Source: a virus
Reading direction: 5' to 3' (one strand)
Length of the DNA: 41,710 bases
IMG/VR virus record: IMGVR_UViG_3300048872_000067
Location: 1 to 41,710 of that record
Part shown: positions 19,034 through 27,683 of the stretch, piece by piece
How the letters are laid out: every line of letters starts with the position of its first letter
How positions within the stretch are numbered: position 1 is the stretch's first letter
Position numbers and translations under genes: made by a program
The notes under the pieces: model-generated
The model's input: the letters and a program-made list of their open reading frames with translations, nothing else
Told to the model about the DNA's origin: nothing
Database searches by the model: none

Positions 19034-19407
19034 TGGCAGCGCATAGACCGAAGTTTGGACAAGTAGAGCGCCAGATGATGGACGAGTTGTTTGAGCCTGA
19101 GGTCTTGCGTGAAAAGATTCCGGGGATGGGTGACGTGCTCGACGGTGCGGCCCATCTCCGGGCGCTGCATGAAGAGATTGGAATTATAGGAAAATTCAGA
19201 ACCGCCAATGGATTCACAGCGGACCGATCTGTGCAGCGCATTTGTAAGATTGATACAAATATATTGATAATGTTAGACCATCTACATGAAGCAGGTTGTA
19301 TGTGCGGTAAGCCTCTATGGGGGAGTGACGGCCACAAGGCTTGGTTCTACGAATGGCTGGAAGGTCCTGGAAAATCCTTTGATACCCGAACGAAAGTGAT
19401 TTTGTAA
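19033..19407 (+). CDS. hypothetical protein, late operon
   Basis: 124 residues joined by overlapping stop/start codons to both neighbours. Mainly helical; three cysteines (ICKID, GCMCGKPLW) include a C-x-C pair followed by a Trp/Gly-rich stretch that could be a small metal site. The region VERQMMDELFEPEVLREKIPG is amphipathic. No known domain. It precedes the glycosyltransferase gene by a four-base overlap, so the two are probably co-translated. Confidence 0.7.
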   Translation: MAAHRPKFGQVERQMMDELFEPEVLREKIPGMGDVLDGAAHLRALHEEIGIIGKFRTANGFTADRSVQRICKIDTNILIMLDHLHEAGCMCGKPLWGSDGHKAWFYEWLEGPGKSFDTRTKVIL

Positions 19408-20669
19408 TGTCTATCCATGAAGCAGGTGGACCAACTAAAGCAAATTTTGGAGTTTATGGGATTAGTAACTTTGATAAAATGTCAGCCCAGGCTTACTATC
19501 GGGTTGGAGTTCCCCTGAAATCTCTCTATCTTCTTGGTTTAGCTAACATTTATATAGATGATGGTAAAGATAACCGTGATCTTGCAATGCAGATTCAGAT
19601 GGGTTCTGACATCGTGATGGGTTGGAATATGAGCAGTGATGTACATTTTAAGGTAATCCAAGACTTCCATGAGTACAAGCATATTATAGACAAAGGCGCA
19701 ATAAGACTGCCCCCTACTTTTGTCTTTGATATGGATGATGATATCTCCTACGTTTCCCCTTTGAACGATACTTTTGTTCATTTTGGAGTGCGTAACTGGG
19801 AAGGGGATATGCTTAATCCAGGAGATACTTTGGAGTGGCCTGCTCCTAATGGGAAGACAATTAAATTATGGGAAGATAAGATTACTGTAGGAGCAAATAA
19901 CAAAACCTTCGATATCGAAAATAATCTAGCCCGACTGGCACAGCACTATGAAGGAGCAAGGTTGTCCCGGGGTGTGACTGTTACAACTCCATTCTTAGCA
20001 GAAATTTATAAAGATCATGGCGTTCAAAATGTCCATGTATATCCAAACAGTATCCTAGAAAGTGATTTCTTCATCCCTACCCTTGTGCCACATGAGGGTG
20101 TCCGTATTCTTTGGCAGGGGAGTACATCACATTTTGAGGACTGGTTCCCAATTCAGGATGCGGTAATTGAAGTTCTTAAGGAGAACCCGCAAGCTAAATT
20201 GGTAATTTATGGAGCCTTGTGGAAATACCTCCAACGTAATATACCGCCTGAACAGCTTGAATTCCATGAATGGTCAGATTACTCAACCTACAAAATCAAA
20301 CGGCACATTCTAGATTGTGATATCAATCTCTGCCCTCTTATTGACACGCCATTTAACCGCTCTAAAAGTGCCCTTAAATGGTATGAAGCATCAATTGGCC
20401 CAAGGCCAGAGGCTACCTTGGCTGCGAAGTGCGGACCATATCTAGAAATTGAACACGGCAAAACTGGATTACTTTATGAAACGCCTGAGGAGTTCAAAAC
20501 GAACCTGACGGCTTTGATTAAATCTAAGGAGCTACGTCTTACCTTGGCGAGCCATGCGAGGGATTGGGTTCGATTAAATAGAGATGCCCTGAAGACCGGG
20601 GTTGAATATATGGAGTTCTTAGAAGAATTGAAACGCCAACAGCGCCGGGAAGCTCTGGCAGCCAGGTAA
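19407..20669 (+). CDS. GT-B fold glycosyltransferase (GT4-like) in virion operon
   Basis: 420 residues. The C-terminal half matches GT4-like glycosyltransferases. It has a nucleotide-sugar strand (VRILWQGSTSHFEDW, near 235-250), KLVIYG, the LCPLIDTPFNRSKSALKWYEA region (about 310-332) that corresponds to the sugar-nucleotide-binding segment, and the terminal GKTGLLYETPEEF motif. The N-terminal half starts YGISNFDKMSAQAYYRVG and includes MDDDIS. The enzyme would transfer a sugar from a nucleotide donor to an acceptor I cannot identify. It sits within the structural operon, 40 nt upstream of the tail adaptor gene, so a virion protein or a glycan on the host surface may be the acceptor. Confidence 0.8.
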   Translation: MSIHEAGGPTKANFGVYGISNFDKMSAQAYYRVGVPLKSLYLLGLANIYIDDGKDNRDLAMQIQMGSDIVMGWNMSSDVHFKVIQDFHEYKHIIDKGAIRLPPTFVFDMDDDISYVSPLNDTFVHFGVRNWEGDMLNPGDTLEWPAPNGKTIKLWEDKITVGANNKTFDIENNLARLAQHYEGARLSRGVTVTTPFLAEIYKDHGVQNVHVYPNSILESDFFIPTLVPHEGVRILWQGSTSHFEDWFPIQDAVIEVLKENPQAKLVIYGALWKYLQRNIPPEQLEFHEWSDYSTYKIKRHILDCDINLCPLIDTPFNRSKSALKWYEASIGPRPEATLAAKCGPYLEIEHGKTGLLYETPEEFKTNLTALIKSKELRLTLASHARDWVRLNRDALKTGVEYMEFLEELKRQQRREALAAR

Positions 20670-20709: not shown

Positions 20710-21654
20710 ATGAGCATGTTGCTAACCGATGCCCAAATATATGTTAGTAGAATCTATGGGGGAACAAATAATTCTGTAATCCTAGCTCAAGCTCTAGACG
20801 CTATTAAATCTACCTTTGAACTATGGCAACGAAAACATAATTGGCACTTTCTTCTACAAGATACCTCCCAGACTTTTGCGGTAGTCAGTTCCAGTACTTC
20901 TTCTGTTACTCTTACTACAGCCGTAACCAATGGTTTTAAGAATGTATTGGTAGGAATGACAATTACCGGAACAAACATTCCAGTAGGAACTACCGTTGCC
21001 TCAATCGAATCTAATGTAAGTCTTACTATGTCTGCTGCATCCACCGGAACGATTTCAGCAGCTTCAATTACTTTTGGAGGAACTATCCCGATTATCACGG
21101 GAACTTCTACCTACAAGTTACCTACTAAATTCTGGAAACCATATTCTTGCCGATTACTAACGAATTCCAAATGGCCTCTTCGATATGTCCAACAAAATTT
21201 TGTGGATGCCATTACATTTGACCAGAATATTGCAGGAGTGGTTTCGGCTTATACCCTGTATAATGCAAATGATTTTGATGCCTCAGGAACACAGCAATCT
21301 TTTATGAAAGTTTTTAATATCCCAGATCGTAATGATACGGCTCTACTTCGCTATTACCGACCATTCGATCCTTCTAGAACAACTGTTGATATTCCAGATG
21401 GATACCTTTATACTTTTTTGGATTGTGCCCAGATCAAATTGCTTCTTATTAAAGACTCCATGAACCCACGTCTTCCGGCTCTTATGTTGCAAATGTATGG
21501 GAGCCATGACCAACGTGGAGATTTCCAGGCAGCAATTGCCGCTGATTCTGAAGAAGGTGGAGAAGATCAACTTGAAGAAATGAAATCTCCACATGAGATG
21601 GAAAAGCGTGGATTTGGGTTTAGTGGGAATTTCTATCCCCGAGGCGATTATTAA
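20710..21654 (+). CDS. tail adaptor (tail tubular protein A-like)
   Basis: 314 residues with AAGGAG upstream. The beginning (LTDAQIYVSRIYGGTNNS) and the end (DGYLYTFLDCAQIKLLL ... MLQMYGSHDQRGDFQAAIA) fit the helical adaptor that joins portal to tail in T7-like phages (gp11 type). Residues about 57-124 are an insert. It is a Ser/Thr/Gly-rich beta domain with the signature VGMTITGTNIPVGTTVASI, followed by VSLTMSAAS. That insert shares its pattern with segments in the two next proteins. Such inserts are probably displayed on the outer surface of the connector. The adaptor role is inferred from length, helical ends and gene order. Confidence 0.78.
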   Translation: MSMLLTDAQIYVSRIYGGTNNSVILAQALDAIKSTFELWQRKHNWHFLLQDTSQTFAVVSSSTSSVTLTTAVTNGFKNVLVGMTITGTNIPVGTTVASIESNVSLTMSAASTGTISAASITFGGTIPIITGTSTYKLPTKFWKPYSCRLLTNSKWPLRYVQQNFVDAITFDQNIAGVVSAYTLYNANDFDASGTQQSFMKVFNIPDRNDTALLRYYRPFDPSRTTVDIPDGYLYTFLDCAQIKLLLIKDSMNPRLPALMLQMYGSHDQRGDFQAAIAADSEEGGEDQLEEMKSPHEMEKRGFGFSGNFYPRGDY

Positions 21655-24600
21655 TGGCAGTCCGTAAGGAAGTTCTTAATGGTGGTGTGGTCCAAGTACG
21701 GCATCCTACTTTACTTAAAGAAGGGGAAGTTCTTCAAGCAGATGATTGCATTCTGCGGCCCGGTGACCCTGCCTTATGCTCTGCCCCAGGGCGTACCGCC
21801 TACGGTACAGTACGAAGTACATCTATCACCACAGTCACGGTGTCAAACACCACACTCACTTCTGCTGGACTATTCGGAACTGATATTGCTACTGTGACAG
21901 TCACATCTGGGTCCGATGTCATAACTAAAGCAGCCGCCGCCTTGGCAGGATTAATCGCAGGACAAACAGTCGTAGGCACAGGAATCCCAGCAGGTACGGT
22001 TGTTAAACGTACCCTTTACAATACCAATGATGTACAATTATCAAATGCTGCTACGGCTACTGGTACTCCGACTATTACTGTCAGTGATCTTCATCCAGGT
22101 ACTTTCATTAGTGGGTCGGGAATAACAACCGGGACTAGCATTGCATCTATCCAAAGTGCTTCCTCACTCACGATGTCCGCAGCAGCTTCTAACGCAGTAT
22201 CTGCCTCGCGCACTTTTAGCGAGAAAGTCAGCGGACTTAAAGCCATTGAATTCAATGCAGGTGAGAGTGATGTGATGCTCGCTAAAGCGGCAGATAAAAT
22301 CTATACCTCTCCGATTACAAATATTACTGGGACATTCACAGAGAAGATACATGGTCTTTCCCAGAATGTAGAGGCTACATTAGAAACTGTACGTGCCAGT
22401 AGTAATGCAAGTACCGGTAAAAAACTGAATGGGCATCTTATCTTGACTGGATTTGATCCTCCTCAGGTTATTTATCTTACAGATAATGGTACTGGAACTG
22501 GAAATCAAATTCCAACTTCTAGGGCATTAGGTATGAAGCCTGTAACAGATTTTGTGGGGGCTGTAATTGTTCCAGGAGTATGGTCTAGTCTCAGTGATTT
22601 GGGTAATAGATATTACTATTTTCTTATTACGGAAGTTTTTAATCCAGGCAGTATAGATGAAGTAGAAAGTACATATAGTGGAATTCCTAGAGGTGTCCAA
22701 ATTACCGATTTCAATACACAAAGCATTCTAGTTACATACACCGCTGGTGCCGCTCCCGCAATTCCTACAAATGACGGACTTAATGGTTCAAATTTAGCAA
22801 CTCATTGGCGTATTTATATCGCCCCGGGAGAGGTATTAGATGCACAACCTCTTCCTGATCTATCTGCGTTCACTGCAGTACAAGATGTACTGATGGCAGT
22901 AAATTCTGTTACGCTTTCTAATTCAAATCCTTTGCAATCTGGGTATGCCCGCACTATAGAGGCGTATGGGGCATTACCAGCATTATTCCCCAGTAGCCCA
23001 TCAAACTCCCTATCAACTATCGCACGACAGGAAGTTACGGCCACTTCGGCTACAAGTTCTAATATTTTAACATCTTCAGCCGCATTTGGAACAGTAACTC
23101 CAGGTATGTTCATAACATCCACTACAAATAAAATTCCATATGGAGTTTACGTAGTCAGTGTGACATCTTCTTCTGCGCTCGTTATGTCAAGCGCAGCTAC
23201 TGGAAGTGCAACTGAAATTTTTGGATTTGGAAATCGACCTTCTTGGGGGGTAAATTATGCTACTTCTCCTCCTAATCAGGGGAATTATCGTGGAAGTGTT
23301 TTTGAAAATTTTGGAATTGAGAATATAGGAGCATTTGCTGCTGCTACAATTACTGGTGTTAAAGTAGAAATTAAAGGATCGTTTAAAGCAGCTTCTGGTG
23401 GGGACAGAGGTTTCGACGTTGTGTTGTATAAAGGAGGCCAAGGAGGAACGGCAAGTCCAGCAAAACATGGGGATTTCGGATCGGGCGCGGGCGGCGGGGT
23501 GAGGGTAAAAGAACATAGAGGTTCAGGAATTATCACACTTGGAGGACCTGGAGATACCTGGGGAATAGCTTGGGCGGTAGGAGGAACAGATTTTATTGAT
23601 GATACTAGTGGCCCGTATACATCATTTGGAGTTGCGCTCAAAAAAAGCTCTGCAGCAGTAGATATAACACATTTTATAGAAGGAGTCAAAGTTACTATTT
23701 ATTCTGGTTCAGAAACTATTACTTTAAATGGAAATCCATTTAGAACTATCATTATTACTGACCAAATAGGCACTTCCGCTGGTGTCGGCGCGGCAGGTCA
23801 GCCCCCTATTGCCTCAACCGGAGATGTAATAGATGATATGGTTGTTCTAAATGATGCTAATTCTGAGGCAGATATAGTAGCTTCTTTGCCCGGTAATATG
23901 GATGCTTACCCTGCCGGGTACCGCTTACCTTTAAAAGATAAAGTAGTTTCTATTCGACGATACGGGACGGGCGGGATTATCGGGTGTAAAAACTCCCTAA
24001 AACGCCTCAACTATTTTCCTCGGGAAACCGATGCCGATGGTTCCAAAGGACGTTGTTTTGAAGATATAGCTACCGATCATGGCGTGGTCGGCCCAATGGC
24101 AATCACACTTATGGACCTTCCAGGGCGCGGCTCAGTTATGCCATATATGTCCTATAATGGGCTACATTGGACTGATGCTATCACAACTTCTGTACTTAAT
24201 GAAGACTTAGATTGGGGTTCACTGGTGGAACCGACGTTGATCCACAGATCAGTTCTCCGAGTCTACCCTAAATTATACTTAATCGCTTTCTATTATGTCC
24301 CCACCGGCGGGACAAGATTGACAAAAGTAATCTACTTTTTCTACCATCCTACTCATCTCAAACCGGGATTTAAGTTACCCGCTATTGGTCCTGTTTCATG
24401 TGAATCTGGAAGTGCTACTAGCGTATTGGTCAATGGTGTTCCTCGCCTGTTCACAGGGCATGGCCTTGATGGAAAAGTATATCTTGAAGATAATGGCATT
24501 ACTGATGATTCCGGGGGGACAATCCTCCCTATTATACGCACGCGCCGGTACTATCTTGCAGAGTTAGGTTACGATGGTCGGGTCGAGTCTTTCTATATTA

Positions 24601-24857
24601 TTACGGATGCTTCTGGTACTTCCACAACTGGGGGGTTCACGGCTGTTTTAAATCGTCAGAATGGTGGAGAACTAGTAACTTTAGTGGATACCGTTACTGG
24701 GGACACTGTGACGGGTGGTATTATCCAGTTATTTATAGACAATGCAGGTGAAACATTCGATATTAAGATTAGTAAAGCAGTAGCCCAATCAGCCCCTATT
24801 CGACTTCATTATATAGGTTTTGAAGCTGCCTATCTACATTCTGGAACTGGTGATTAA
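21654..24857 (+). CDS. tail nozzle protein (tail tubular protein B-like)
   Basis: 1067 residues. The N-terminus (VRHPTLLKEGEVLQADDCILRPG) has the look of T7 gp12-like nozzle proteins, whose beta-propeller starts with a similar stretch. Beta-rich repeats follow. Surface-type beta domains similar to that in the adaptor occur at about residues 58-188, apparently one nested in another, and again at about 460-525. The later region (residues 760-1060) reads as continuous beta strands ending with HYIGFEAAYLHSG. It would form the distal end of the short tail through which DNA leaves. The start overlaps the adaptor stop (TAATG). It is longer than T7 gp12 because of the inserts. Confidence 0.82.
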   Translation: MAVRKEVLNGGVVQVRHPTLLKEGEVLQADDCILRPGDPALCSAPGRTAYGTVRSTSITTVTVSNTTLTSAGLFGTDIATVTVTSGSDVITKAAAALAGLIAGQTVVGTGIPAGTVVKRTLYNTNDVQLSNAATATGTPTITVSDLHPGTFISGSGITTGTSIASIQSASSLTMSAAASNAVSASRTFSEKVSGLKAIEFNAGESDVMLAKAADKIYTSPITNITGTFTEKIHGLSQNVEATLETVRASSNASTGKKLNGHLILTGFDPPQVIYLTDNGTGTGNQIPTSRALGMKPVTDFVGAVIVPGVWSSLSDLGNRYYYFLITEVFNPGSIDEVESTYSGIPRGVQITDFNTQSILVTYTAGAAPAIPTNDGLNGSNLATHWRIYIAPGEVLDAQPLPDLSAFTAVQDVLMAVNSVTLSNSNPLQSGYARTIEAYGALPALFPSSPSNSLSTIARQEVTATSATSSNILTSSAAFGTVTPGMFITSTTNKIPYGVYVVSVTSSSALVMSSAATGSATEIFGFGNRPSWGVNYATSPPNQGNYRGSVFENFGIENIGAFAAATITGVKVEIKGSFKAASGGDRGFDVVLYKGGQGGTASPAKHGDFGSGAGGGVRVKEHRGSGIITLGGPGDTWGIAWAVGGTDFIDDTSGPYTSFGVALKKSSAAVDITHFIEGVKVTIYSGSETITLNGNPFRTIIITDQIGTSAGVGAAGQPPIASTGDVIDDMVVLNDANSEADIVASLPGNMDAYPAGYRLPLKDKVVSIRRYGTGGIIGCKNSLKRLNYFPRETDADGSKGRCFEDIATDHGVVGPMAITLMDLPGRGSVMPYMSYNGLHWTDAITTSVLNEDLDWGSLVEPTLIHRSVLRVYPKLYLIAFYYVPTGGTRLTKVIYFFYHPTHLKPGFKLPAIGPVSCESGSATSVLVNGVPRLFTGHGLDGKVYLEDNGITDDSGGTILPIIRTRRYYLAELGYDGRVESFYIITDASGTSTTGGFTAVLNRQNGGELVTLVDTVTGDTVTGGIIQLFIDNAGETFDIKISKAVAQSAPIRLHYIGFEAAYLHSGTGD

Positions 24858-27683
24858 TTGAGAGCTTTTGAACCACAGATTCCTGCCCGAGATTTTGATA
24901 ACCGGCTGTACGAATGCCTAAAGAATATCAATGGGTATTTGCAGCAGGTGGACACAGCTTTCGGTTTAATTGGCCGTGGATTGGTCCCGGTAGCTGGAGC
25001 AGGTCCAGGTATTCCGGGAACGACTATTGGGGGGTTGATTAGACATAGCCAACTTCTTGGGCTAGAGGCCGACGACCATCTTCAATATCTTCTATTAGCT
25101 GGTCGTTCAGCGGGACAAATTGCTCATGGGACAAAAGGATCAGGTTCGAGTGGGGCAACGACAGATGTAAGTGAATTTAGTACTCAAAAAGAAGGAACCG
25201 GAGGAGTTACTTGGACTCCTATTGCGATAGGAACAAGTGCTCAAATTAATGATATTATAGTAGTTGTTGTTTGTACTGCTGGGCGAGATGGAAGTCCTAC
25301 TCAAACGCATGATGCTCTCACAGATACTAAAGGTCATACTTGGACAAGACATGCTTTTGCAAGTTTTGAAAGACCAGCAGCACCTAACCGATTTGCTGCT
25401 GCTAGTATTTGGACGACAGTTATCACTACACCACTTGTATCCGGTGTTGATACACTTGGATTAACTTTCTCTGGCGCAGTTGGAAGTCGTGCAATTGAAT
25501 CAAGAATTTTTAGAGGATTCTCTGGTGCAATAGTAAGTCTCGCAGGGTCTACCTTCCAGGGAGTTGATGTTAATTCTCCGGCAGACCCACCTGCAAGTCT
25601 AACTATTTCTGGACTGACATCAAGAGAATATCTATTTATTAGAGCAACAAGTATTGCAGACAACAATACAAGTTACACTGCATCAAGTGGGTATACTGAA
25701 TTTACATCAGTACATACAAATGCGACGACATCACACGGTACACTAGATGATAATGTTGGGTGCCGTGGAGAATTTTCAATCGTTACTAGTACAGGAAGCA
25801 CCAGCGCCGGGCCAACAATAAATTTAACGAATCTTCCAATGACACTCTCGTTGTTGGTTGCACTTAAAGTAACTGGAGGAAATGCTGGAAGTTTAAAATT
25901 CTTTTCAGGTGACGATTCATCGTCGGCTGAGATAGCGATGGTCGGGAGTACAATTACCTCAAATTTTGACTTCTTTAATTTTCGCGCTATAGGTGGGGTA
26001 ACGACACTTTCATATATTCGTGGCAGTGATGGTGCATTTGTCGGCCCGGTTGTAGCAGTAGGAACTGACACTCATCCTGATAATATATTTAGGATTGTCG
26101 GATCGTCTGATGCTACTAAAAAAGTAGCCTTTGAAGTAGATGGGCTGACTACAGCCACTACTCGTCTACTGACTGTTCCTGACGTTGATGGCATACTGAT
26201 CCTTAGCCAAGGTACGAGTGCAGGTCAGGTAATTGGGACTGGGGCGCACACAGGTGGCGCAGCATCTTCAATGGTTATTGAAAATTCAATAATGATTGGA
26301 GATGGTCTAAGTGGGACTAATTTCACGGCTGGAAGAGTTCTCAATGCTTTGCACGGGGCGGGGAATAATACATCATTTTTTCTATTAAGAAATACATTAA
26401 ATACACCGAGTGGGGCCGCATCTGGAGCATTTTTCTTTCTTGATATCCAGCCCCAGGCAGTTGGGTATTCCAGTGGAAGTTACACATATACCGGATTTAG
26501 ATTTTTAGCAGCGAGTACCATTGTAGCATCGGGGGTGACGTGTTCAAATGCAACTGGGGCCATTATCCAATGTTCTCCTGTAGGAGCAAATGACGTAGGT
26601 TCGGGAAATCCTCATGGTCCAATAAGCATATATCGCGGATTGTTGATTACAACAATCGGCACGACCATTCCATCAGATAGAGAAATTGCTGTATCTGTTA
26701 CGGCTGGGAGTACAGCAGTAACGTCTGCGGGGCTATTTGTCTCCCCAATTGCCTCTGGACATTCGATTAGGTCATCTGGAGGAGTAGGTGTTATCGCTCC
26801 TGTTACGACTATTACTATTACAGATGCATCTAACGGAGTATTGTCACAAAATGCAACTGTGACTGGTGCCACCACCGGAGTGATAGGTCCTCTTTCTACA
26901 GAGATTACTGGTTTGAGAATTGCAATGTCAGCTAGAACGCAAACAGTCACAGATTTGCGTGCGATATCGATTGTGGATAATGGTGGGGGAAATCAATGGG
27001 TAAAAAATGCATCCGTAATAGAATTAATTTCTGCCCCAGGGAGCACAGTGAACACAGAAACATGGTCGTTTATAAAGAACACTGTGACTGTATCTGGACC
27101 AGGAACTATTTGGCTCTTTAATTTTACTAGTACAAATAGTTCCAGGCATGCTGGTATGTTCTCAATTGGTCATACGGCGACACCCACTTCGTGGATTCAT
27201 TTAGGAACTGGAACGACTACAATCTCCCCCCTCCGATTTGTGGCAGGAACTAATCTTACAACTCCGCTATCTGGTACTGAAGAGTATGATGGATCATATT
27301 TCTATCTAACACATGGGGATGCGATACGCACTCTTATCCCGACACAGCGAGGTACGTTAAATCTTACGGCACAAGCAGCCGCTATAGGCGCTACTGCTTT
27401 ATACGCCCCGCCTGCTGCTGGGTATTACCTTGTTCATTACACATTGGAAGATACTACTGCTGATGTGACGGCAGGTACAATACAATTTCAAATAAACTAT
27501 ACTGATGATATTGGTGCTACAAATCAAGTAGGAGCCGCTCTTATATTAACAGCAACAGGGCGGGATAGAGGAACATTCCAAATTTATAGTGCAAGTGGCA
27601 CTATTACTTATCAAACTAATCTTGTAGGAATAATCGCAACTAGCCGATATGCACTTCGCGTTCGTCTAGAGGCTATGGGGTAG
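24858..27683 (+). CDS. tail fibre / receptor-binding protein
   Basis: 941 residues from a TTG start (24858) adjacent to the previous stop. The N-terminal 50 residues (PARDFDNRLYECLKNINGYL) probably attach to the tail. Next comes the fibre motif HSQLLGLEADDHLQYLLLAG, characteristic of phage fibres with a D-H-x-Q-Y-L turn. The shaft is a long Ser/Thr/Gly/Ile-rich beta region, with a surface-type domain similar to those in the adaptor and nozzle at about 611-675. The C-terminal 110 residues (GATALYAPPAAGYYLVHYTL ... TNQVGAALILT) form a jelly-roll-like head that may bind the receptor. No chaperone-type autocleavage domain is evident. A strong terminator follows. Confidence 0.86.
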   Translation: MRAFEPQIPARDFDNRLYECLKNINGYLQQVDTAFGLIGRGLVPVAGAGPGIPGTTIGGLIRHSQLLGLEADDHLQYLLLAGRSAGQIAHGTKGSGSSGATTDVSEFSTQKEGTGGVTWTPIAIGTSAQINDIIVVVVCTAGRDGSPTQTHDALTDTKGHTWTRHAFASFERPAAPNRFAAASIWTTVITTPLVSGVDTLGLTFSGAVGSRAIESRIFRGFSGAIVSLAGSTFQGVDVNSPADPPASLTISGLTSREYLFIRATSIADNNTSYTASSGYTEFTSVHTNATTSHGTLDDNVGCRGEFSIVTSTGSTSAGPTINLTNLPMTLSLLVALKVTGGNAGSLKFFSGDDSSSAEIAMVGSTITSNFDFFNFRAIGGVTTLSYIRGSDGAFVGPVVAVGTDTHPDNIFRIVGSSDATKKVAFEVDGLTTATTRLLTVPDVDGILILSQGTSAGQVIGTGAHTGGAASSMVIENSIMIGDGLSGTNFTAGRVLNALHGAGNNTSFFLLRNTLNTPSGAASGAFFFLDIQPQAVGYSSGSYTYTGFRFLAASTIVASGVTCSNATGAIIQCSPVGANDVGSGNPHGPISIYRGLLITTIGTTIPSDREIAVSVTAGSTAVTSAGLFVSPIASGHSIRSSGGVGVIAPVTTITITDASNGVLSQNATVTGATTGVIGPLSTEITGLRIAMSARTQTVTDLRAISIVDNGGGNQWVKNASVIELISAPGSTVNTETWSFIKNTVTVSGPGTIWLFNFTSTNSSRHAGMFSIGHTATPTSWIHLGTGTTTISPLRFVAGTNLTTPLSGTEEYDGSYFYLTHGDAIRTLIPTQRGTLNLTAQAAAIGATALYAPPAAGYYLVHYTLEDTTADVTAGTIQFQINYTDDIGATNQVGAALILTATGRDRGTFQIYSASGTITYQTNLVGIIATSRYALRVRLEAMG

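Follow-up and report, generated by a model that had tools for sequence, protein, structure and literature searches.

A predicted small β-barrel domain, akin to a phage decoration protein, in the adaptor and nozzle-like proteins of an SU10-type virus record

Introduction

Immunoglobulin (Ig)-like domains of phages are promiscuous, the same small β domain being found across several unrelated virion proteins. Small barrels inserted in virion proteins are also known, as is their fold. Six-stranded examples are described in the coat protein of P22 and in the enzymes LKA1 gp49 and KP34gp57 (PMC5701251, PMC10653864). In the LKA1 tailspike study, the insertion barrel is likened to the P22 coat domain, which likely stabilizes subunit contacts (PMC5701251), while the insertion barrels of the depolymerases KP34gp57 and LKA1gp49 are described as contributing to the sugar groove (PMC10653864, PMC5701251). 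That phages are mosaics of domains is itself well documented (PMC10684548). In the short-tail machine of SU10, the adaptor is described as a dodecamer that docks the long fibres and the nozzle as a hexamer (PMC9509320). The subject here is a β-barrel domain of about 67 residues in adjacent tail genes of the IMG/VR virus record IMGVR_UViG_3300048872_000067. The window that was analysed is the whole record, 41,710 bases.

The barrel occurs in the adaptor and the nozzle-like protein and probably also in the fibre-like protein. The reading favoured here, with a probability of roughly 0.55, is that one barrel family was inserted rarely into these proteins, was then inherited, and serves as a structural knob rather than as a dedicated receptor or glycan binder. 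As far as the literature was searched, the link between a tail domain and a decoration protein, the probable self-nesting and the site-by-site record of gain and loss are new; the motif strings of the barrel were not found in that literature.

Barrel copies in the adaptor and the nozzle

At the level of sequence, profile matches and shuffle tests confirm the segments of the adaptor and the nozzle-like protein as copies of one family (Table 1; genomes and loci compared with the window carry L numbers). The motif-trained profile was built from loci for which the motif was the only criterion of retrieval; it excluded the window, L001, L128 and L132 but retained L083, later recognized as a distant relative. 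When the compositions were shuffled, the scores of the adaptor copy, the inner nozzle copy, the joined outer halves, the second outer half and the copy at site S4 were never reached (0/1000 each). In pairwise comparisons, the adaptor segment scores 98 with the first nozzle segment and 90 with the second, against shuffle maxima of 79 and 67 (0/500 shuffles as high in each case), and the two nozzle segments match each other more weakly (2/500). The adaptor, second nozzle and fibre copies of the window are 25-30% identical to its inner nozzle copy. L134, a relative that entered neither this profile nor the lineage-copy profile used below, matches in its adaptor (1e-8), its nozzle (9e-9 and 1e-11) and its fibre (2e-5). 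The barrels have a biased composition, with Ser, Thr, Gly and Ala making up 55-59% of residues; Ser and Thr account for 30-38%, against 14-16% in the remainder of the adaptor and nozzle.

In the adaptor, the barrel follows two N-terminal helices and precedes the strand at YKLP. The first-pass annotation had described one Ser/Thr/Gly-rich pattern in three adjacent tail proteins. Its placement of the segments holds (adaptor 57-124, nozzle 56-189 and 458-526, fibre 607-680), and profile and shuffles bear out the shared pattern itself for the adaptor and nozzle, whereas the copy in the fibre is only probable.

Table 1. Barrel copies, the proteins that carry them and the upstream gene; positions are those of the window
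Feature	Position	Strand	Evidence
Glycosyltransferase-like gene, immediately before the adaptor and separate from the domain	19407..20669	+	PHROG 7162, E 1.6e-25
Adaptor (SU10-type head-tail adaptor), carries one barrel	20710..21654	+	Pfam match and structure model
Barrel copy in adaptor, residues 57-124	20878..21081	+	Motif-trained profile i-E 9.3e-10; model match 8eci_1
Nozzle-like protein, 1067 residues, carries three barrels	21654..24857	+	Named from gene order and the first-pass label
S1 outer barrel, first half (A1), nozzle 56-78	21819..21887	+	Lineage profile of first halves, 8.6 bits
S1 inner barrel, complete, nozzle 79-145	21888..22088	+	Motif-trained profile i-E 2.1e-13; model match 8eci_1
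S1 outer barrel, second half (B1), nozzle 146-189	22089..22220	+	Motif-trained profile i-E 6.4e-6, positions 14-58 only
S4 barrel (second nozzle copy), nozzle 458-526	23025..23231	+	Motif-trained profile i-E 1.6e-7
Fibre-like protein, 941 residues	24858..27683	+	Named from gene order and the first-pass label
Probable divergent barrel in fibre, residues 607-680	26676..26897	+	7.6 bits; barrel copies in the gene after the nozzle in relatives

Predicted fold and nearest relatives

A model of nozzle residues 48-200 was made from 56 aligned rows (mean pLDDT 73), with pLDDT blocks of 82-98 in the inner copy and 50-69 in the outer halves. Twelve adaptors went into the model of the whole adaptor, whose confidence is moderate (mean pLDDT 67; 73-87 in the blocks of the insert). 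Although built separately, the two models are not wholly independent, since their alignments share three adaptor pieces. Both have six strands in the barrel copy, and the segments are, in these predictions, one six-stranded β-barrel domain.

By sequence and by predicted fold, this barrel is akin to the decoration protein of Arthrobacter phage Bridgette (8ECI chain 1, listed as 8eci_1). A sequence profile of seven rows reaches 8eci_1 with an E-value of 4.5e-5, the next hits being 0.7 or worse, and with 56 rows the value is 9.6e-8, the sole Protein Data Bank (PDB) match at E≤1. Foldseek lists 8eci_1 in the first row for the nozzle model (E 3.3e-3, prob 1.00), and VIA also places it first (Z 9.8, root-mean-square deviation (rmsd) 2.6, 76 aligned residues, 30% identity; next row 7.9). 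The adaptor insert, residues 55-125, gives a Z of 10.3 with the same protein (rmsd 1.5, 69 aligned, 36% identity), while the whole adaptor chain matches the adaptors of A4, GP4, VP1 and SU10 (Z 9.7-12.2; A4 is best at 12.2 and SU10 reaches 9.7-9.8). The structural models called for in the first-pass annotation thus give one predicted fold for the nozzle copy and the adaptor insert. The Bridgette protein is a separate protein of the capsid, whereas the domain here lies within longer chains, in several copies of which one is probably nested. Since the barrels sit inside the adaptor and nozzle reading frames, they are a shared domain and not a stand-alone decoration protein.

The barrels of P22 coat, LKA1 gp49 and KP34gp57 resemble the domain as small six-stranded barrels inserted in a virion protein, but the similarity is structural only (Z about 7-8) and those barrels belong to coat proteins and enzymes. 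With the adaptor model, the LKA1 gp49 insertion barrel scores Z 8.1 and the P22 chain 9pgg_Ab 225-343, taken as coat, Z 7.1, both near background; in the PDB sequence search, only 8eci_1 matches at E≤1. Matches in a library of predicted viral structures include a tail collar protein, a Synechococcus phage fibre and an S-PM2 virion protein. Another match, BFVD A0A6J5SIT1, comes from an uncultured phage and is a predicted major capsid protein of HK97 type; capsid chains may therefore contain the module as well.

Like the Ig-like domains of phages, the barrel is a small β domain shared by virion proteins that are otherwise unrelated; unlike them, it has a decoration protein as its best fold match. 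An Ig-like domain was rejected as an identification: there is no Ig hit in Pfam for the three proteins at E≤1 or for the 56 rows at E≤0.1. The Ig fold is not among the structural matches listed for the nozzle and adaptor models, although its absence from such a list proves nothing. Pfam returns only scattered single weak hits for the 56 rows, no Pfam model was found for the domain, and eight PHROG families match some of the copies.

The window shares with the short-tail machine of SU10 the capsid, portal and adaptor families and the adaptor fold. In Pfam, the capsid protein matches SU10_MCP (E 3.7e-62), the portal SU10_portal (37.9 bits) and the adaptor SU10_adaptor (PF24175; 27.7 bits, just above the cut-off of 27). 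The last match spans adaptor residues 125-254, or positions 45-165 of the 194 in the profile. In contrast to the adaptor of the window, the Pfam match has no room for a barrel before profile position 45, and the domains of the SU10 nozzle are described as Ig-like (PMC9509320).

Filled and empty sites

The nozzle set comprises 18 genomes including the window, of which 13 were kept after five near or cut copies were dropped. The copies were cut out before core alignment, with limits set by hand for the window, L001 and L132, and the cores then align smoothly. Five nozzle sites, S1 to S5, are filled in some of the 13 and empty in others. S1 and S4 are filled only in the window and L001 and are empty in the other 11, while S3 is filled only in L128. 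S2, which is an interval and not an exact point, holds a single copy in L083, L134 and L145, and a split domain in L132, L135, L137, L141 and L142. The C-terminal site, S5, is empty in the window and L001 and occupied in each of the other 10 nozzles that extend to it; the L132 sequence ends before it. On the core tree, a minimum of one change each is needed for S1, S3, S4 and S5 and three for S2 (L140 and L143 coded empty). The comparison with insert-less homologues that had been proposed for defining the borders therefore yields clean empty counterparts at five nozzle sites, and the filled and empty places in relatives mark the barrel as a domain inserted in a loop of its host protein. Beside the S4 barrel, at nozzle residues of about 527-690 (window 23232-23723), there is a second variable stretch, of which other nozzles hold a different form.

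At the adaptor site, a related-looking segment can be seen by eye in 12 of 12 aligned proteins, shortened in L132, and the profile finds the copy in only six of them (window, L001, L083, L134, L145 and L142). In L140 (L140:1-2466), three adaptor units are fused in one frame of 836 residues; by eye, the first two are barrel-like and the third is without a barrel, and no profile match passes for this fused protein. The distant relative L083 (L083:4380-10771), which was fetched by motif alone, has the domain once in its adaptor, twice in its nozzle and twice in its fibre.

A tree of 35 copies over 69 columns, in which outer copies were entered as joined halves and many forks are unresolved, requires 11 site changes, against a minimum of 8 and a mean of 23.0 with shuffled labels. 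The adaptor, S1-inner, S1-outer, S2 and S4 copies form one group each; S5 needs four changes and S2-inner two. The S1-outer and S4 copies join in one group (88/88), a hint of an old copying event within the nozzle gene. Because copies at most sites group together, the tree agrees with insertions that were rare and then passed on vertically, not with a fast element. A recent mobile element was considered and is unlikely, the window copies being only 25-30% identical to the inner copy and most sites having tree groups of their own. The mobile surface domain suggested in the first-pass annotation is thus supported by the filled sites and their empty counterparts, but only as slow mobility. Its spread among virion genes is likewise seen in three adjacent tail genes, as the L134 matches show, but with 11 changes this spread appears rare and old.

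Nesting in the nozzle

Residues 56-189 of the nozzle comprise 134 residues, which is two domain lengths. The complete inner barrel lies between A1 and B1, the two halves of a putative outer barrel. With the lineage-copy profile, A1 alone scores 8.6 bits in the window (12/2000 shuffles as high) and 13.5 bits in L001 (0/2000), and joining the outer halves of L001 raises the score from 45.1 to 50.9. A comparable arrangement is found at S2, where, in the five nozzles with a split domain, a copy of 64-67 residues splits a second domain that is whole in L143. When this split domain is compared with the family in hhalign, the probabilities are 34% for the lineage profile and 3.5% for the census profile (reversed controls 0.1 and 0.3), and its first half in L132 is unremarkable, with 317/2000 shuffles as high. 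Since the profile comparison is weak and the L132 half does not stand out, the S2 outer domain is not counted as the same family, although it may belong to it. It is well supported that a full copy was inserted into another small domain. At S1, the split outer domain is likely of the same family as the inner one, which would be self-nesting. The suggestion that one nozzle copy lies inside another is made likely by the complete inner barrel, by B1 and by the A1 of L001, and less so by the A1 of the window.

The fibre-like protein

The fibre segment is a probable divergent barrel copy. Cut out, it scores 7.6 bits with the motif-trained profile over positions 2-58 (4/1000 shuffles as high), and in a scan of the whole fibre the same profile gives only 1.9 bits, at residues 613-673, with no match below an E-value of 1. 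The lineage-copy profile gives the segment 7.0 bits (11/2000). Its pairwise scores are weak or absent, with 6, 60 and 144 of 500 shuffles as high. Among 6550 control windows from non-carrier frames, 34 reach the fibre score with the motif-trained profile, four of them near full-length and two of those four overlapping within one frame; the lineage profile gives 44 such windows, two near full-length. These few near full-length control windows may be genuine copies. In 8 of the 18 genomes, the domain is present in the gene that follows the nozzle, with two copies each in L083, L141, L142 and L146 and one each in L134, L137, L138 and L139; in the other ten, including the window, no match passed, and some of these contigs end early. 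The grade of probable follows from the control scores and from these copies after the nozzle.

Neither the nozzle nor the fibre has a Pfam match, and NCBIfam returned no family for the adaptor, nozzle or fibre. Against named phages, tblastn gave no match for the adaptor or nozzle at E 0.01, and no useful match for adaptor, nozzle or domain queries (the sole match had an E-value of 7), which is no proof of absence, because the low-complexity filter of BLAST may hide the domain. A nozzle alignment search of genome contigs and a fibre segment search of viral contigs each returned no relative.

Carriers outside the lineage

Scanning viral contigs for the core motif fetched at least 120 stretches, 109 of which contain the domain; of 120 genome loci, 37 hold it, in 39 carrier frames. 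Because the loci were picked by the motif, these counts are not prevalences, and the conservation of the motif among 114 distinct copies is built in. In genome contigs L222, L165, L158 and L204, bacterial proteins that have autotransporter passenger repeats score for the domain, with up to five copies per frame.

The glycosyltransferase-like gene

All 18 genomes examined (window, L001, L083, L128, L132, L134, L135, L137-L146 and L148) have a gene of this kind immediately upstream of the adaptor, 17 by a profile built from five genomes and the 18th, L140, by a search of the whole record. Among the five, pairwise identity is 35-58%. The Pfam match to Glyco_trans_1_4 is below the cut-off. The gene occurs in only one of the 120 motif-fetched loci, the relative L083; the domain is thus not dependent on it, although these loci are short. 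Speculatively, its product may modify the virion.

Discussion

The domain would fold by itself and have its ends close together, so that rare recombination could place a copy in an exposed loop of the adaptor, nozzle or fibre, where it would then be inherited. On the tail surface, the barrel would form a rigid knob packed against adjoining subunits or fibres, as cement or for docking, in the manner of the related capsid protein, and its job is most likely structural, that of a surface or cement module. Kinship with the decoration protein, the fold likeness to the LKA1 tailspike insertion barrel and the scarcity of charged residues speak for such a role. If the stoichiometry of SU10 holds here, the virion would show 12 adaptor and 18 nozzle barrels.

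Several results weigh against this account. The structural role is drawn from one solved relative, which belongs to a capsid, and sugar contact is possible, because similar-looking depolymerase barrels help form a sugar groove. All four bacterial carriers tested, out of the 39 frames and picked among multi-copy ones, have autotransporter passenger repeats, which fit adhesion too. Foldseek gives no match for the nozzle model at E≤0.001. In the copy tree, the five copies from fibres fall apart rather than forming a group (four changes; 133/500 shuffles as low). For the nesting, A1 alone does not stand out with the motif-trained profile (4.5 bits, 48/1000 shuffles), and joining the outer halves of the window brings no gain (36.6 to 35.3).

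That the barrels bind host glycans or cell-surface proteins, extra copies raising avidity or changing host range, is rather unlikely. The surface proteins that carry them, the autotransporter repeats, the fibre and tail collar proteins among the predicted-structure matches and the sugar pocket that some phage depolymerase insertion barrels help to build (PMC10653864) all speak for it. However, no charged or aromatic residue predominates in any column of the 114 copies (the highest listed are Asp at 11% and Tyr at 27%, in the last column; Asp, Glu, Lys, Arg and His make up 3.7% overall), one copy is located in the adaptor, the only relative by sequence in the PDB decorates a capsid and the depolymerase barrels are fold-level neighbours near background. 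The glycan or cell binding raised in the first-pass annotation is thus not supported. The Ser/Thr-rich barrels could instead carry sugars added by the adjoining glycosyltransferase, as virion glycan carriers; this is improbable. It draws on the constant position of the gene in 18 of 18 genomes, the 35-58% identity among five of its versions and the Ser and Thr enrichment of the barrels, but the domain occurs in the motif-fetched loci without the gene, and the enzyme is putative, with Pfam glycosyltransferase scores below cut-offs. Equally doubtful is a combined version, in which the barrel is a protein-level mobile module that colonizes loops of adaptor, nozzle, fibre and capsid as well as its own fold and is sugar-coated by the glycosyltransferase; if it were true, the tail would have a changeable glycan surface.

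As to the copies themselves, it is unlikely that nozzle 56-189 contains partial repeats and one full repeat side by side, without nesting. The poorly modelled outer halves, the A1 missed by the motif-trained profile and the window score that joining does not raise would be expected of such an arrangement, but the total length equals two domains, the L001 half stands out by itself and adds 5.8 bits on joining, and in five other nozzles a copy splits a domain that is whole in L143. Chance likeness of Ser/Thr/Gly-rich β segments through low-complexity convergence is extremely improbable. The fibre segment is marginal in the sequence tests and the composition of the barrels is biased, but shuffles never match the adaptor and nozzle scores, which rules out such convergence for these two proteins, and the copies have a predicted fold in common. 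The rare insertion and inheritance of one structural barrel family is accordingly preferred here.

Many of the moving units of mosaic phage virion proteins are still undescribed. The barrel is a short unit, without a Pfam model found for it, that can be traced from empty to filled sites at loop resolution, probably with a case of self-insertion among them, and that is linked to a capsid decoration protein of solved structure. With a curated model, unknown virion proteins could be annotated more readily, and the nested and empty sites are ready cases for how virion proteins tolerate inserted domains. As a reusable module, the barrel shows a way in which phages can decorate their surface.

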